Below are positions 6,048-49,476 of a DNA stretch of 64,000 nt, piece by piece. The stretch is from Desulfobacteraceae bacterium Eth-SRB1 (GTDB lineage: Bacteria; Desulfobacterota; Desulfobacteria; Desulfobacterales; ETH-SRB1). Under the pieces are notes generated by a model. It saw nothing but the letters and a program-made list of their open reading frames with translations, was not told where the DNA came from and searched no databases. The stretch spans positions 563,127-627,126 of the forward strand of contig RPGP01000040.1 in the NCBI GenBank assembly GCA_004193555.1, read 5' to 3'. Numbering within the stretch: the first letter of the stretch is position 1; each line of letters starts with the position of its first letter. Both the position numbers and the translations under genes were made by a program.

Positions 6048-7109
6048 TTATGCCTTCCTTTCACCATAAAGCCACCACCACGAATCTTCCTCAAGAAGTA
6101 TCCTGGTGTTACATAATTCACTTCCTTTCAACCACTTTCGCATCTCATGCTTTTTGTAATAGTTAGTAATGGGCGCCGCCAAACGGTCAAACCAATCCGT
6201 ATACCCGATCTGGAACCCATATGCTGCATACTCTTTAACCCGCAACGGCGTAAAGCGCTCTGCCACATTTCTCACAAATGGCAAACTCTGTGTTAATCGA
6301 TACAGGTTCATGAAAATGCCATAATCTATTAAATTACACAAATAGGCCATCCGACGGATGTTCTCGTTGGAAAGTCGCAGTGAAATGAACCGTAAAATTT
6401 CCAGCGCAACCTTCCGCGGAGCATAGGCATATACCCATATAAACAGTCCCCCACCCTTGTTTAAAAATTTTATTAAGGCCTGATAGCCTTTCTCAGGTTC
6501 AGGAAGATGGTGTAATACGCCTAAACTAAATATGAAATCAAAAATGCCAGGGCTGAATGGCAAGTTATATATATCAGCCTGCACGATATGAACCTGTTCA
6601 TTATCAATATTAAGTCGATGCGCAGCATCAACGGCATGCGACAAGTCAATACCTACAATCTCAGCTCCTTTTTCGCTCGCTTGCCGGGCATGTCGACCTG
6701 CACCACATCCAACGTCGAGTCCCAACTTCCCTTTGAAAAAATAGGCTGGTAGTGGCGCAATGAAGGGTTCAAAGTTATCACACTTATAGTCAGAAAATTG
6801 CTCCCATTCGTATCCAAATCGATTCATCGTTGCCTTCTTTTTTTCACTCAGGTCACTTTCTTTGGCAATTGCCTTACGGTCTAAAATGCCTGAATGTCGA
6901 TTGAAAAAATCCGGATAGAGTTCCGGCCATCTATTTCTTAACGAACCACAAAGTAATCTTGGCACCCCACCGATGACTGGAAATATCTGACCACAGGGGC
7001 AGCTTAAAATTCCTTCAACAATCTCATTTCTTTCTCGATGACTTACCTTTAATGCTAATTTATTGCCGCAATCAGGACATGCCAACCACCTTAAAAGTCT
7101 CTTTTTCAT
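6048..7109 (-). CDS. SAM methyltransferase with N-terminal Trm112-like zinc ribbon
   Basis: LACPDCGNKL...GILSCPCGQIFPVIGGVPRLL followed by LGLDVGCGAGRHARQASEKGAEIVGIDLS. Confidence 0.85.
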   Translation of the reverse strand: MKKRLLRWLACPDCGNKLALKVSHRERNEIVEGILSCPCGQIFPVIGGVPRLLCGSLRNRWPELYPDFFNRHSGILDRKAIAKESDLSEKKKATMNRFGYEWEQFSDYKCDNFEPFIAPLPAYFFKGKLGLDVGCGAGRHARQASEKGAEIVGIDLSHAVDAAHRLNIDNEQVHIVQADIYNLPFSPGIFDFIFSLGVLHHLPEPEKGYQALIKFLNKGGGLFIWVYAYAPRKVALEILRFISLRLSNENIRRMAYLCNLIDYGIFMNLYRLTQSLPFVRNVAERFTPLRVKEYAAYGFQIGYTDWFDRLAAPITNYYKKHEMRKWLKGSELCNTRILLEEDSWWWLYGERKA

Positions 7110-7351
7110 TCATTAGCCTCGAATATTTTAAGCAAAGAACAGAAAAGGGGATTGCGCCGAACAACATCATGCCTCCATTCAGTAACACCCTGAATAATCT
7201 GATGATCTGATTTATGCCACGGCAATTTACGGGTCAGTATATGAACATCATACCCTCTCTTCTGCAAAATGGTGCTCTGTTCAAACAAAACCCTTTCTGC
7301 TCCACCAATTACCTCAACAATCGAAACATCGGAAACGAATAAGATATTCAA
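7106..7351 (-). pseudogene. Truncated glycosyltransferase (GT4 N-terminus only)
   Basis: MNILFVSDVSIVEVIGGAERVLFEQSTILQKRGYDVHILTRK is a GT4 N-terminal start; the 81-aa ORF stops abruptly and lacks the nucleotide-sugar-binding domain. Confidence 0.7.
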
Positions 7352-7406
7352 AACTAATCCTCTTTAACTTGACGATCACTTAAAAGACAAACTCAAATGG
7401 AATTTT

Positions 7407-7863
7407 TTACTTTTTTCTTGCCATCACTTCCAGTGAAGGACCCCAAAGAACTCTTCCACCAAGAAATAAATCAGTTAATTTACCCATTACTTCAATTATT
7501 CTCGCAACAAAACTGAAAAAGGAACTCCCCAGCGGCAAGGCCCGGGGTAATCCGTGCAATCTGCGAGATCTGTGGATTAAACTCACCCCGGAAAAGCTCG
7601 CATTATGAACCTCAATATCTGTAAACCCATGATCAGACAACAGTCTTCTTATAAATCCTGGTGTGAAACAATATTCGTGAAAAACAAGCAATTTTGCTAT
7701 GCTTCGTTCAATATTGAGCTTTTGGGACACTTTAAAAAGATATGAATGGAAAAGACCATTGGGAAATCTCAGAAAGAGAACACCGTTGGACTTTAGTAAA
7801 AGCTTTGCTTTGCTGACCTCCTTCCAGGGCTCCACCGGGATTTGATCTATTGGAAGACTATTA
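7407..7863 (-). pseudogene. 5'-truncated methyltransferase (C-terminal half), broken by the IS4-like element
   Basis: EPWKEV...FLRFPNGLFHSYLF...LLVFHEYCFTPGFIRRLLSDHGFTDIEV...GGRVLWGPSLEVMARKK parallels the C-terminal half of the intact ORF 15364-16203; the frame can be followed to the IS boundary. Confidence 0.8.
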
Positions 7864-43378: not shown

Positions 43379-45193
43379 CTACCTGCCAGTTGTCTGCTGG
43401 CAGGCAATTAGAAAGCGATAATAATCGTTTGTTTCAAGAAGCGTCTGGTGAGTGCCGATCCCTACAAGCCTGTTTTCATTCAGAAGAAAAATCCTATCAG
43501 AATCCCTGATAGTGGAGAGCCGGTGGGCAACTACAACAAGGGTCCTGCCCTGCACAAGGTCGGGAAGCGCCTGAAAGATTGATCTTTCAGTTATGCTGTC
43601 CAGGGCTGAGGCCGGTTCATCCAGCACAAGGATATCAGGCTCTTTTATGAGCGCCCTCGCAAGAGACAGCCTCTGTTTTTCCCCTTCTGACAGATTAAGC
43701 CCTTTTTCGCCTATCAAAGTTTCATAACCGCCCGGCAGGCTTTCAATAAAACCATGTATGCCTGCTGCTTTGGCAGCCATGATAATATCCTCTTCTTTAG
43801 CCTCTGAACTGCCGTAACGGAGATTTTCCATAACAGTGCCGGACAGAAGCAGTGTACTCTGAGAAACATAGCCAATGCGGCTCCGCAGGGAACTGACTTC
43901 GCAGTCTGCCACCGGCAGATCATCAAAAAGAATTGCGCCGGAAACCGGCCTGTAAAAACAGAGCATAAGACTCAAAAGGGTTGTTTTTCCCACACCGCTT
44001 GGCCCTACAATGGCAACCTGCTCCCCCGGTTTTATTACAAATGAGACATTTTCGAGCACCGGTTCCCGCTCATCGTAAGAAAAAGAGACTTCCCTGAACT
44101 CAATCTTTCCTTTTAATTTCTCAACTTTCCTGCCGACCCCCACATTCTCCTCAATAGTAATATCAAAAAGTGCGGATACGCGTTCAAGGGCGGCAAGAGC
44201 TTTCTGGATCTGAAGATTGGCCGTGGCCAGAAACTGCGCGGGTCCGAAAACGTAGCTTAGATATGCCAGAAAGGCGAGCAGAGAACCAAGTGTCCATTGA
44301 CCATTAATAACCCAGTATGCCCCTAATGCCAGAACAATACCCTTTGCAAGCCACGGCATGGAACTGATAGTTAGATTGGCCACCGAAGCGACTGTTGATT
44401 CCTCCAGTGATATCTGAAAGGTTTTCCTCCACTCAGAAATTATATGCTTTGCTGTACGATCTTCCGTGGAAAATGCCTTGATAAGAGGAATGGAAGTAAG
44501 CAATTCCTGAAGGCGGCTTGACACATTGGCCTCTTGCTCCATGCTCTCATGACCCAGGACGCGCATTTTGCCGGAAAAGAAGCGGATAATATAAAAAAGT
44601 CCGGGAATAACGATGAGAACTCCAATGGCAAGCCTCCATTCAAGATAGAACAAAAATACCAGACCGCCGATGAATCGAAGCACATTGCTGATTATGTAAC
44701 CAATAGTGCCGGAGAAAAACCAGCGCAGCTCCTCCACATCAGAGGACAGCCGTGACATGAGATAACCTGTTTCATTCCTGTCAAAAAACATCTTTGGAAA
44801 ACGAAGAGTTCTGCCTAAAAGAACATGCTGGATATCGAGAATGATCACCTGCTCCAGCCGCTTGAAATAGAATTGCTCCCACAGACCCATAAGCTTCGAA
44901 ACTATCAAAATACCCGCAAGCAAAATGATTGCGCCTGCAAGAAGGGCCACCTGACGACTCAGTATTACATCGTCAACAATATAGCGGAAAATAAGGGGCG
45001 CCGGGAAACTAAGCAGGGAGGTAAACATAATAATAATAGCGCCCAGAAGCGCCTTTTTCCAGTGCCGCCTTATAAATGGCTGCAAATTCCTGAGGCTGCC
45101 CCTGATTACGGAACGGCCACCTTCTCCGGCCAGACGATCTTCAGACCGTTTCCGGGAAAGTCCCTGTTTTATATATGTAAAAAAGTCTTGCAT
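43379..45193 (-). CDS. ABC transporter, fused permease-ATPase (MsbA-like)
   Basis: TM domain, GPSGVGKTTLLSLML (Walker A), LSEGEKQRLSLARALIKEPDILVLDEP. Confidence 0.95.
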   Translation of the reverse strand: MQDFFTYIKQGLSRKRSEDRLAGEGGRSVIRGSLRNLQPFIRRHWKKALLGAIIIMFTSLLSFPAPLIFRYIVDDVILSRQVALLAGAIILLAGILIVSKLMGLWEQFYFKRLEQVIILDIQHVLLGRTLRFPKMFFDRNETGYLMSRLSSDVEELRWFFSGTIGYIISNVLRFIGGLVFLFYLEWRLAIGVLIVIPGLFYIIRFFSGKMRVLGHESMEQEANVSSRLQELLTSIPLIKAFSTEDRTAKHIISEWRKTFQISLEESTVASVANLTISSMPWLAKGIVLALGAYWVINGQWTLGSLLAFLAYLSYVFGPAQFLATANLQIQKALAALERVSALFDITIEENVGVGRKVEKLKGKIEFREVSFSYDEREPVLENVSFVIKPGEQVAIVGPSGVGKTTLLSLMLCFYRPVSGAILFDDLPVADCEVSSLRSRIGYVSQSTLLLSGTVMENLRYGSSEAKEEDIIMAAKAAGIHGFIESLPGGYETLIGEKGLNLSEGEKQRLSLARALIKEPDILVLDEPASALDSITERSIFQALPDLVQGRTLVVVAHRLSTIRDSDRIFLLNENRLVGIGTHQTLLETNDYYRFLIACQQTTGR

Positions 45194-45926: not shown

Positions 45927-46226
45927 ATGAATTACCTTGATAAAGTTTACAGCAAGAGCGATTCCATCGTATTTAGAAAGATAGCCGATGAGTTTATCCT
46001 GGTTCCAATCAGGCAAAATGTTGGTGATCTGGAAAGCATCTATACCCTGAATGAAACCGGTGCCCGCATCTGGGAGCTGATTGACGGTAAAATAAAGGTA
46101 AGAGAAATAAAAGAAAAGCTAATTGAAGAATTTGAAGTAACGCCTGAAGAGGTGGAAAAGGATATCCTGGAACACCTCGTGCAGTTGGAGAAAATAAAGG
46201 CCATAACATTAGGATTAGAGGATTAG
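45927..46226 (+). CDS. PqqD-family peptide chaperone (RiPP recognition element)
   Basis: IYTLNETGARIWELIDGKIKVREIKEKLIEEFEVTPEEVEKDILEHLVQLEKIKAI. Confidence 0.93.
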   Translation: MNYLDKVYSKSDSIVFRKIADEFILVPIRQNVGDLESIYTLNETGARIWELIDGKIKVREIKEKLIEEFEVTPEEVEKDILEHLVQLEKIKAITLGLED

Positions 46227-46231
46227 GGATT

Positions 46232-47350
46232 ATGGAATGTCCTCATATACCGGAAATCAAATACGGCGAATTCAGCGAACATATCCATAAAAAAGCGGTA
46301 GCAACCAGGATTCCGCTCAATGGAGCTATAGAAGTAACCTATCGTTGCAATTTAAATTGTGTGCATTGCTACTGTAATTTACCGATCAGTGACAGTGCGG
46401 CGACCCGGCAGGAAATGACCTATGACGAAATCTGCAATATTGTGGACCAGGTGGCAGAAGAAGGGTGCCTGTGGTTGCTTATTACCGGAGGCGAGCCTTT
46501 AATTCGAAAAGACTTCATTGATATCTACACGTATATCAAAAAGAAGGGTATGATCATCTCCCTTTTTACCAACGGCACGATGATTACCCCCGGGCTTGCC
46601 GATTATCTTAAAGAATGGCGGCCATTTTCTGTGGAAATCAGCCTTTACGGTATCACGAGGGCAACCTATGAAAGAGTTACAGGAGTACCAGGATCGTTCG
46701 ACCGCTGCATGAGGGGCATCCGGTATCTTCTGGAGAGGGAGATACCTCTTAAACTAAAGACGAGTGTATTGACCCTTAATCTGCACGAACTCTGGGATAT
46801 AAAAAAATATGCTGAGAACCTTGGAGTGGAATTCAGGTTTGATCCAATTATCAACCCACGACTTGACGGAGGCAAACAACCGTGCCGGTACAGGATTACT
46901 CCAGAGGAGGTGGCGGAACTCGACCGCAAAGACAAAGATCGCTTCAGGGAATGGAAGGAATTCTGCCGGAAATTCTGGGGACCAGGCAATCCGAAAATCG
47001 TTTACAACTGCGGGGCGGGACTGGCATCATTCCATATTGACCCCTACTGCAAATTGCAAGTCTGTGAACTGGTAAAAAATCCGAACTTTGACCTCAGGCA
47101 GGGTAAGTTTAAAGAGGGCTGGTACAACTTGTTTCCGAAGATCAGGGCCCAAAAGCCCGAAGGCGACAACAACTGTGCCAAATGTGAACTCTTTTCACTG
47201 TGCGATCAGTGCCCCGGATGGGCCCAGATAGAAAATAATGATATAAATATGCCGGTCGAATACCTGTGTCAAATAGCCCATCAGCGGGCAAAGATCCTTG
47301 GTATAAAGGAGGTAGAAAAAAATGGAAGGCAAAGCAAAGCGGCTGTATAA
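46232..47350 (+). CDS. Radical SAM/SPASM peptide-modifying enzyme
   Basis: EVTYRCNLNCVHCYCNLPI (CxxxCxxC), LLITGGEPLIRKDF, C-terminal SPASM-like Cys set YNCGAGLASFHIDPYCKLQVCEL...NNCAKCELFSLCDQCPGWAQ. Confidence 0.93.
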   Translation: MECPHIPEIKYGEFSEHIHKKAVATRIPLNGAIEVTYRCNLNCVHCYCNLPISDSAATRQEMTYDEICNIVDQVAEEGCLWLLITGGEPLIRKDFIDIYTYIKKKGMIISLFTNGTMITPGLADYLKEWRPFSVEISLYGITRATYERVTGVPGSFDRCMRGIRYLLEREIPLKLKTSVLTLNLHELWDIKKYAENLGVEFRFDPIINPRLDGGKQPCRYRITPEEVAELDRKDKDRFREWKEFCRKFWGPGNPKIVYNCGAGLASFHIDPYCKLQVCELVKNPNFDLRQGKFKEGWYNLFPKIRAQKPEGDNNCAKCELFSLCDQCPGWAQIENNDINMPVEYLCQIAHQRAKILGIKEVEKNGRQSKAAV

Positions 47351-47489
47351 CAAACCCAAAATTAGTAAAGTCAGATTGCTCCCAGAGGAGGCTGTTTTGC
47401 AAAATTGTAAGGCATTGGGTAGCAATAAAGGTGCTGCTACTAACAAATGCTCGGCGGGAGCCTGTAACTCTAGGCTGGTGGGATCATAA
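47322..47489 (+). CDS. Candidate RiPP precursor peptide (55 aa), absent from the ORF track
   Basis: Manual translation MEGKAKRLYNKPKISKVRLLPEEAVLQNCKALGSNKGAATNKCSAGACNSRLVGS*; strong SD AAAGGAGGT at 47305-47313, 8 nt before ATG; overlaps the rSAM 3' end by 29 nt in another frame. Confidence 0.85.
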   Translation: MEGKAKRLYNKPKISKVRLLPEEAVLQNCKALGSNKGAATNKCSAGACNSRLVGS

Positions 47490-47620
47490 AGAATAAACGT
47501 GCAAAGATAATCCTAAGTATCGGCGGTATAGTCATATCCATTGAGTACTCCACCGATGGCGGAAAGGATGTTTGCGGTAGTTCCTCTTATACAGCCTTTA
47601 TTGTAAAGAAAAAGCCTGAT

Positions 47621-48340
47621 GTGTTTCTGAAGGTACAGAATGGTCATCCTCCCGTTTTTGATACAGACGAAGTTATCTTCCAATCGGCGGACAACGTCTG
47701 GAATCTTTTCCGTAGTCAGAACAAGTATATCCTGGAAGATGCTCTGCGGTTGGCAGTCCTGGAGCCTCATTTCAAATCCGGCAATATATACCTGAAAGAA
47801 AAAACTGATAACTTTACCCAGTTTATCCTGGAGTATCCTTTAGGCGAAATTTTTTTTATCAATCTTCTATCGAGGGGATATGGTGTGGTGCTCCATGCTT
47901 GTGGTGTTATTGATGATAACGGTCACGGTTATCTTTTTTTAGGCAATTCAACTCATGGCAAATCAACAATTGCTAAATTATGGTCTGAAAGCGGCGCAAC
48001 GGTGTTGAACGATGACAGGATTATTGTGAGGGAAAGAAATGGAAAGTTCTGGATGTATGGAACGCCATGGCATGGCGATTTCAATGAGGTATCGTCTAAA
48101 GCATTACCGATTCGCAAGATATTCTTTTTGCGCCATGGAGAAAAGAACTCGACTGTTCCCAGAAAAGGTGCTGAAGCGGTTTCAATGCTGTTAACCCGGG
48201 CTTTCCCTCCCTTGTGGGATAAGGAAGGAATGAACTATACCTTAAGTCTGCTTGACCGTATGGTGATCAAACTGCCCTGCTTTGAATTGGAGTTTGTTCC
48301 AGACAAAAGTGCCCTGGAGTTCATCAGGAGTTCCATATAA
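47621..48340 (+). CDS. HPr-kinase-like protein (true start probably further upstream)
   Basis: YLFLGNSTHGKSTIAKLWSESGATVLNDDRIIVRERNGKFWMYGTPWHGDFNEVSSKALPIRKIFFLRHG; listed GTG start, but the frame is open back to 47474. Confidence 0.85.
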   Translation: MFLKVQNGHPPVFDTDEVIFQSADNVWNLFRSQNKYILEDALRLAVLEPHFKSGNIYLKEKTDNFTQFILEYPLGEIFFINLLSRGYGVVLHACGVIDDNGHGYLFLGNSTHGKSTIAKLWSESGATVLNDDRIIVRERNGKFWMYGTPWHGDFNEVSSKALPIRKIFFLRHGEKNSTVPRKGAEAVSMLLTRAFPPLWDKEGMNYTLSLLDRMVIKLPCFELEFVPDKSALEFIRSSI

Positions 48341-49476
48341 TGGCTATCGGGCCTATCGGTCATACAGCGTTGGTCGCTGACTCTGCCCGCACTAATGCCT
48401 ACCAGAGGGCGATCTCAGAAACAGTTAAAGATGGCGATGTGGTGGTAGATTTAGGCACGGGGACAGGAATCCTTGCCTTCTTCGCCTGCCAGGCCGGGGC
48501 AAAAAGGGTTTACGCTATTGAGAAAGATAAAATAATTGAACTTGCCAGAGAGATTGCCCGGGTAAACAATTTAGAAAAAAAGATAGTCTTCATTAGGGAC
48601 ATCTCCACTGAGGTCACTTTGCCCGAGAAGGCTGATGTTTTGCTCTCAGAGTTAATAGGAAATTTTGCTTATACTGAGAACCTCCTCCATTTCGTCCTTG
48701 ACGCCCGGGACCGCTTTCTGAAGAAAGATGGAGCCTTGATTCCCTCTTCAATCGAGATGTTTCTTGTCCCCGTAGAGGCTCCCAGAATCTATGATGAAGT
48801 AGCTTTCTGGAATCAAAATCTCTACGGGATTAATTTTCTCCCCGCACACAAAGTTAATATGAATAGTCTTCACAGCTATCGAATTGAGGTCGAATCTTTC
48901 TTATCCCATCCTGTGTTAATAAACGACATTGATTTTAACAAGATTCAAAAGCCTGAGGAATTATATTTAGACGAAACTGCCTCATTTGTGGTCGATCGGC
49001 CGAGAATATTACATGGTCTGGCTGGATGGTTTGATATCCATCTTTCTAAGAACATTTTACTCTCCACCTCCCCTGCTTTACCTGTCACCCACTGGGAGAA
49101 CACCTTTTTCCCAATAGAGAAGCCAATAAAGGTGGCAAAGGGAGATACCATCAAGGCAAAGGTGACTGCTGCCCCCTGGCAGGGCGATATTGCCTATAGC
49201 TGGAATGTAAAGGTAGAAAAGGATAGGTTCAGCCATTCCACCTTGCAAACATCTTTGCTCTCCGCGGAGTACCTTCTGAGCCGTTCAGTTGATTTTGCAC
49301 CCTCCCTATCAGGAGGAGGAGAGGTTGATTTTTTTATCCTCAGCCGCTGCAACGGGAAAAACTCCATTCAAAAAATTGCCAGCGAGTTATGTGAGCAATA
49401 TCCGGAAACCTATAATGACCTGAGAAAGGCCTTAATAAAAGTAGGTAAAACAGTAAAGAAATATTTAGATAAGTGA
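48340..49476 (+). CDS. PRMT-like SAM methyltransferase with C-terminal PqqD-like segment
   Basis: VVVDLGTGTGILAFFACQAGAKRVYAIEKD; SELIGNFAYTENLL (double-E-like loop); LPVTHWENTFFPIEKPI (THW loop); tail FFILSRCNGKNSIQKIASELCEQYPETYNDLRKALIKV. Confidence 0.85.
   Translation: MAIGPIGHTALVADSARTNAYQRAISETVKDGDVVVDLGTGTGILAFFACQAGAKRVYAIEKDKIIELAREIARVNNLEKKIVFIRDISTEVTLPEKADVLLSELIGNFAYTENLLHFVLDARDRFLKKDGALIPSSIEMFLVPVEAPRIYDEVAFWNQNLYGINFLPAHKVNMNSLHSYRIEVESFLSHPVLINDIDFNKIQKPEELYLDETASFVVDRPRILHGLAGWFDIHLSKNILLSTSPALPVTHWENTFFPIEKPIKVAKGDTIKAKVTAAPWQGDIAYSWNVKVEKDRFSHSTLQTSLLSAEYLLSRSVDFAPSLSGGGEVDFFILSRCNGKNSIQKIASELCEQYPETYNDLRKALIKVGKTVKKYLDK

Follow-up and report, generated by a model that had tools for sequence, protein, structure and literature searches.

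Protein arginine methyltransferases (PRMTs) have, to our knowledge, been studied almost entirely as eukaryotic enzymes, and a frame for a PRMT-like protein inside a bacterial RiPP cluster raises the question of what such an enzyme could be doing there. The window, a stretch of 64,000 nucleotides from Desulfobacteraceae bacterium Eth-SRB1, carries this frame intact on the forward strand at 48340-49476, as the original prediction had read it. It codes for 378 amino acids, of which residues 1-303 form a PRMT core and residues 304-378 a helical tail. On balance, comparison of sequences favours the reading that the protein is an accessory RiPP PRMT which methylates Arg51 of the precursor peptide encoded in the same operon.

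The PRMT core and its operon

The best PDB sequence match of the protein was PRMT3 (E 8.5e-41, residues 8-277), and PRMT2, PRMT6, PRMT8, PRMT1, CARM1 and PRMT5 were matched as well. The Pfam profile PRMT_C (PF22528) matched residues 139-283 above its cut-off (E 1.4e-21, 77.5 bits against 27), which indicates the C-terminal barrel with its dimerisation arm; PRMT5_C (2.2e-13), PRMT5 (3.6e-5) and PrmA (2.4e-11) were also found. The earlier claim of a Rossmann motif was borne out by alignment of motif I (VVDLGTGTG, 35-43) with PRMTs, and with the acidic E61 after beta2 this gives the SAM-binding signature. The loop SELIGNFAYTE had been read as double-E-like; its sequence is correct, and the catalytic glutamates E104 and E113, nine residues apart, align with the PRMT3 loop SEWMGYFLLFE. 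Similarly, the THW loop THWENTFFPIEKPI had been quoted correctly, T250-H251-W252 fall on their PRMT counterparts and the His-Asp pair (with D14) is present. H8, D14 and R17 align with PRMT counterparts too. In its Rossmann motifs, double-E, THW loop and barrel with dimerisation arm the protein is like the eukaryotic type I PRMTs (PRMT3, PRMT1, PRMT6, CARM1) and PRMT5. Unlike them it is bacterial, belongs to a RiPP operon, has a truncated alphaX helix and carries an extra helical tail of 75 amino acids. Eukaryotic type I PRMTs have, and require, the YFxxY part of helix alphaX. It is missing from the window protein, where only 7 residues precede H8, and is absent in the homologues at loci L021, L044 and L045 too; the protein is therefore named a PRMT homologue or PRMT-like enzyme rather than a canonical type I PRMT. 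We take its double-E loop (SELIGNFA) to be PRMT5-like and its THW loop to be type I-like. An AlphaFold model of the whole protein, built from two sequences, had a pLDDT of 33 and was unusable.

Such proteins had been called uncommon in bacteria, which is fair, since the PRMT_C profile had matches in 0 of 14 control genomes and PRMT-like proteins occurred in 15 of 395 genomes of the order (E<=1e-25). A search of viral contigs gave a single, uninformative match at 27% and a search of plasmids gave distant PRMT-like proteins only. Bacterial PRMT-like proteins with intact double-E and THW were also seen outside RiPP clusters (L051, 9155-10297; L052, 244-1233), with a C-terminal SEC-C zinc motif that was confirmed by Pfam for L051.

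The operon has the gene order PqqD, radical SAM, precursor, HprK-like kinase, PRMT and S26-like peptidase, all on the forward strand, and the PRMT gene shares 1 nt with the kinase gene before it and 4 nt with the peptidase gene after it. A pattern scan of 85,488 species genomes yielded a sole close relative, in Ca. Desantisbacteria CG1_02_38_46 (locus L021), which has the same order and one extra radical SAM gene. The PqqD-family peptide chaperone, a discrete RRE of 99 amino acids, lies at 45927-46226 (PF05402, E 2.4e-16). It is followed by a radical SAM/SPASM-like peptide maturase of 372 amino acids (46232-47350; PF04055, E 2.1e-22), which is 58% identical over 351 residues to its L021 homologue, and by the precursor of 55 amino acids (47322-47489), 46% identical to that of L021. 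The HprK/ScmC-like kinase (47483-48340; ScmC TIGR04249, E 1.3e-10; P-loop GNSTHGKST) is 47% identical to the L021 kinase across the whole frame. Its frame is open from about 47474 and homologous over its full length, and no ATG, GTG or TTG occurs before 47621; the start is likely to be non-canonical, an ATC/ATA near 47483-47486 that would overlap the stop of the precursor, or else the sequence has a fault. The S24/S26 (SipW/archaeal signal peptidase I-like) peptidase of 160 amino acids (49473-49955) starts with a GTG that overlaps the PRMT stop and scores above the cut-off of TIGR02228 (E 3.6e-15). A nucleotidyltransferase of PF14907 (51083-52237, forward strand, E 8.1e-46) probably belongs to the cluster; such a gene also lies 3' of the peptidase in L021 and L128. 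On the reverse strand at 43379-45193 is an ABC transporter (permease-ATPase), a possible exporter, whose family also flanks related clusters. Between the peptidase and nucleotidyltransferase genes, a PemK/MazF-like toxin with a small upstream antitoxin-like ORF was noted on the reverse strand (50048-50637). A single frame at L044 (709-2259) joins an S24/S26-like peptidase and a PF14907 nucleotidyltransferase, a fusion which suggests that the two may act together.

In having a PqqD protein, a radical SAM enzyme and an HprK homologue, the cluster type combines parts whose kinds are all known. It is like the HprK-type lasso clusters (paeninodin PadeK; pseudomycoidin PsmK/PsmN; PMC8498205, PMC9266682) in its HprK-like kinase, nucleotidyltransferase, PqqD/RRE, ABC transporter and C-terminal Ser of the precursor. 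Unlike them, it has a radical SAM maturase in place of the AsnB cyclase and B2 protease, neither of which was found among the window cluster proteins, so that it does not class as a lasso cluster, and its core has three Cys. The SynChlorMet cassette (ScmC-F; NCBIfam TIGR04248-TIGR04251) likewise combines a PqqD-like protein, a radical SAM enzyme and an ScmC-like HprK homologue. However, its models include no PRMT and the window proteins score far below the curated cut-offs (ScmC 41 of 125 bits, ScmD 28 of 100, ScmF 87 of 400).

The precursor family and Arg51

The window precursor has a leader KPxIxxVxLxPxEAVL and a core C29K...C43...C48NSR51LVGS55, so the original prediction had rightly placed an Arg at position 51. 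The window and L021 precursors have 25 of 55 columns in common, including C29, C48, R51 and S55, and R51 is the only Arg common to both. The radical SAM enzyme was searched in the 395 genomes of the order, 52 of which had close homologues, and 25 complete precursors beside homologous radical SAM enzymes were collected, the window and L021 ones included. They form one family, KPxhxxhxLxxxExhL..CK...C...C..xGS, and end in Ser without exception (25/25). An HprK-like kinase adjoins the precursor in all 23 loci with a long enough contig, which is the context of a PadeK-like kinase for a C-terminal Ser. The paeninodin kinase phosphorylates a C-terminal Ser (PMC8498205), and the invariant Ser with an adjoining kinase is what a kinase of that type would require.

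Position -4 from the C-terminus is Arg in both clusters that have a PRMT (window SRLVGS, L021 NRVLDS) as against 1 of the 23 others, where Ala (L127), Lys (L128, L129) or other non-Arg residues are found. The one exception to the link is a precursor at L130 (5144-5338) ending in CRDLGS. A search of its genome (G041) for a PRMT gave 0 matches, and its contig stops 371 nt past the precursor without reaching a kinase or PRMT gene. Fisher's test gave p 0.011 with L130 counted as PRMT-negative (22 negatives) and 0.004 without L130, figures which rest on one or two events, because the window and L021 radical SAM enzymes are sisters (90/80) in a clade formed by the six closest enzymes (100/100). Only these two PRMT-bearing members of this RiPP family were found. 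The association thus lends limited independent support to Arg51 as the putative substrate.

The methyl acceptor could also lie elsewhere in the precursor (a Lys, the N-terminus or a group made by the radical SAM enzyme) or in another protein. The precursors have several Lys, and the truncation of alphaX means that the active site may differ from those of known PRMTs. Against this, the PRMT-specific double-E and THW signature is intact and Arg51 is conserved where the PRMT is present, which makes such an acceptor improbable. Thus, the idea of a RiPP arginine methyltransferase acting on Arg51 has kept its PRMT homology, its glutamates, its RiPP context and, to a limited degree, its Arg at -4; what found no support is the recruitment by an RRE of its own, discussed below with the tail.

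Transfer of the PRMT gene and its proposed function

Comparison of the window with L021 revealed that the PRMT gene has a history different from that of its neighbours. Protein identity is 74% for the PRMT, 67% for PqqD, 57-58% for the radical SAM enzyme, 47-48% for the kinase, 34-35% for the peptidase and 28% for the nucleotidyltransferase, and identity at third codon positions is 0.62 for the PRMT gene as against 0.32-0.39 for every other cluster gene. A block of about 78% DNA identity spans 48275-49463 on the forward strand and takes in the PRMT gene together with the final ~65 bp of the kinase gene. Identity drops to about 50% on either flank, and the block boundaries match the PRMT gene. 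Such a block inside clusters that are otherwise about 50% identical indicates that the PRMT moved as a discrete gene, the block being the probable unit of transfer or exchange; the passage of the gene from one such cluster to another is therefore of later date than the divergence of the clusters themselves. This block, with the relatives that have no PRMT, shows the gene to be a mobile, optional module between the kinase and peptidase genes.

The neighbourhood of the kinase varies in the relatives too. At L127 (41-1024, reverse strand), a close relative without PRMT whose precursor ends in CKSAFVGS, an S26-like peptidase is fused to a GNAT acetyltransferase. An unknown protein of ~350 amino acids lies beside the kinase in other relatives without PRMT (L142, 5700-6700; L144, 6500-7660; L150, 6600-7950); it has a motif like NYITHAAFHKLEGLPPPxALGR, and the L144 copy has no Pfam match. 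Judging from these cases, the kinase neighbourhood seems to offer a slot in which accessory enzymes can be exchanged. At L021 a second radical SAM protein with a DUF512-like C-terminus (6711-7838) lies between the PqqD and main radical SAM genes.

A gene that moves as a discrete block could be a mere passenger, recently transferred and without functional tie to the peptide, and the clusters of the closest relatives (L127-L129) do without a PRMT. This is very doubtful, as the gene sits in the same slot in two distant bacteria, overlaps both neighbours, is conserved at the protein level (102 residues are identical with different codons) and has an Arg at -4 in both recipients. The acquisition of the PRMT and the near absence of that Arg in relatives without it argue instead that the PRMT probably methylates this Arg.

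In the proposed function, the cluster is a radical-SAM RiPP cluster of the HprK type, which the PRMT would serve as an accessory tailoring enzyme. The precursor would first be acted on by the PqqD protein and the radical SAM enzyme and, as in paeninodin-type systems, the HprK-like kinase would phosphorylate the invariant Ser55 at the C-terminus. With SAM as the methyl donor, the PRMT-like enzyme could then mono- or dimethylate Arg51 (position -4) at its guanidino nitrogen(s), with catalysis by E104/E113 and the H251-D14 pair as in eukaryotic PRMTs, and the S26-like peptidase and ABC transporter could be responsible for processing and export of the product. The order of these steps, like the role of the tail, is what we infer. 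SAM-dependent methylation of an arginine guanidino group by a bacterial enzyme is known for SznE/StzE in streptozotocin biosynthesis (PMC11705231, PMC12637814), to which the window PRMT is likened by function; the substrate of SznE is free arginine, for a small molecule, whereas that of the window PRMT would be a peptide of a RiPP cluster. In the literature searched, which takes in few subscription journals and has most of them outside it, no paper was found on a PRMT with a lasso peptide, on an arginine methyltransferase with a RiPP and a radical SAM enzyme, or on a PRMT-like enzyme as an exchangeable RiPP accessory. If methylation of Arg51 is true, a compact PRMT whose target is one defined Arg in a peptide of 55 residues would offer a simple system in which to study PRMT catalysis and the evolution of the double-E site, kept here and lost in lasso-cluster relatives, as well as a tool to install methylarginine in peptides. 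Since one precursor family includes clusters with and without the PRMT, comparing them puts the substrate hypothesis within reach of a direct test.

The tail and the wider methyltransferase family

Beyond the barrel, the window PRMT has about 75 further residues (304-378, at 49249-49473 on the forward strand), which had been described as PqqD-like and as an RRE by which the enzyme is recruited. The likeness to PqqD held for the helical half and not for the beta part. PF05402 matched the whole protein with E 0.01 and the tail alone with E 0.0025, at 16.5-18.5 bits (tail alone 18.5) and thus below the Pfam cut-off of 23.4, and the match was always to the helical half of the profile (21-54 of 67). 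Eight of 18 tails matched PqqD in Pfam, the best with 5.5e-4. A tail profile matched PqqD structures with E 0.011 (3g2b) and 0.049 (5sxy), and unrelated matches were equally strong. Alignment by hhalign with a profile of the clusters' PqqD proteins scored 22.8 (P 0.0012, probability 20%), where the highest of 100 column shuffles reached 15.7. The likeness is therefore significant but weak. AlphaFold modelled the tail alone as helices only, with low confidence, the last two helices alone being above 70. By the strict definition an RRE has three strands before three helices, beta-beta-beta then alpha-alpha-alpha (PMC12710340). The strict reading was set aside, as the tail has no beta strands and its scores are sub-threshold; since the match is confined to the alpha-alpha-alpha half, the tail is called a winged-helix-like domain related to the helical half of PqqD. 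Recruitment by the enzyme's own RRE is not supported. A discrete full PqqD is encoded in the cluster. BLAST of the window PqqD against the window PRMT gave no match, so the tail is no recent copy of the neighbouring PqqD. An N-terminal PqqD-like half was suspected by eye in L056 and found no confirmation in Pfam.

A PRMT-like core with the same tail was also found in a radical SAM RiPP cluster (L049) and in 16 lasso-type clusters (L047, L048, L053-L055, L072, L075-L084), and an HprK-like kinase is present in all 19 loci with tail-bearing methyltransferases. The tail is thus a conserved accessory domain common to HprK-linked methyltransferases, possibly with a role in docking to the precursor or a partner. 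AsnB occurs in all 16 lasso-type loci except the cut contigs L072 and L084 (it was seen in L047, L048, L053-L056 and L075-L083). In the lasso-type members the double-E motif has Asp for its first Glu or is disrupted in some other way, most have lost the second Glu and none has THW, because of which it is unlikely that they methylate arginine in the PRMT manner. Most lasso-cluster cores are also without Arg, so the ancestral or general acceptor of the tail-bearing family may not be Arg. Intact double-E is found in tail-less members inside RiPP clusters (L044, L045) and outside them (L046, L050-L052). The deep branches of the methyltransferase tree have no resolution.

The constant presence of the kinase (19/19) gives rise to the main rival of methylation at Arg51, in which the acceptor would be a kinase-linked C-terminal group, either the phosphate of phospho-Ser55 or the C-terminal carboxylate, common to the whole tail-bearing HprK-associated family. 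It would fit the lasso-cluster cores that have no Arg, and methylation of the C-terminal carboxyl is known in lasso peptides (StspM, PMC9266682). The methyltransferases StspM/LasF and LihM are RiPP tailoring enzymes too, but they carry out carboxyl/aspartate O-methylation and belong to other families (PMC9266682, PMC13352647). On the other hand, E104/E113 and THW, lost in the lasso members, are all kept in the window and L021, which indicates a different chemistry. In addition, of the 23 clusters in this radical SAM family that have the kinase, 21 have precursors ending in Ser and no PRMT, and the lasso cores have no C-terminal Ser in common. A C-terminal acceptor is thus rather unlikely here and methylation of Arg51 is preferred. 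Taken over the whole family, it could tentatively be proposed that a PRMT fold with a half-PqqD tail works with HprK-like kinases across two unrelated RiPP classes, with the side chain of an Arg next to a C-terminal phosphoserine as its acceptor in the radical SAM branch and, after loss of the glutamates, a different acceptor in the lasso branch.

For 21 PRMT-like loci, double-E status was also compared with the presence of Arg in the core (Arg in 5/5 against 6/16); the comparison was dropped as a test because the tree needs only two double-E changes, giving 1-2 independent pairs. Among the lasso-type loci, the precursor at L047 (11637-11819, reverse strand) ends in eight methionines (GGKPMMMMMMMMP).
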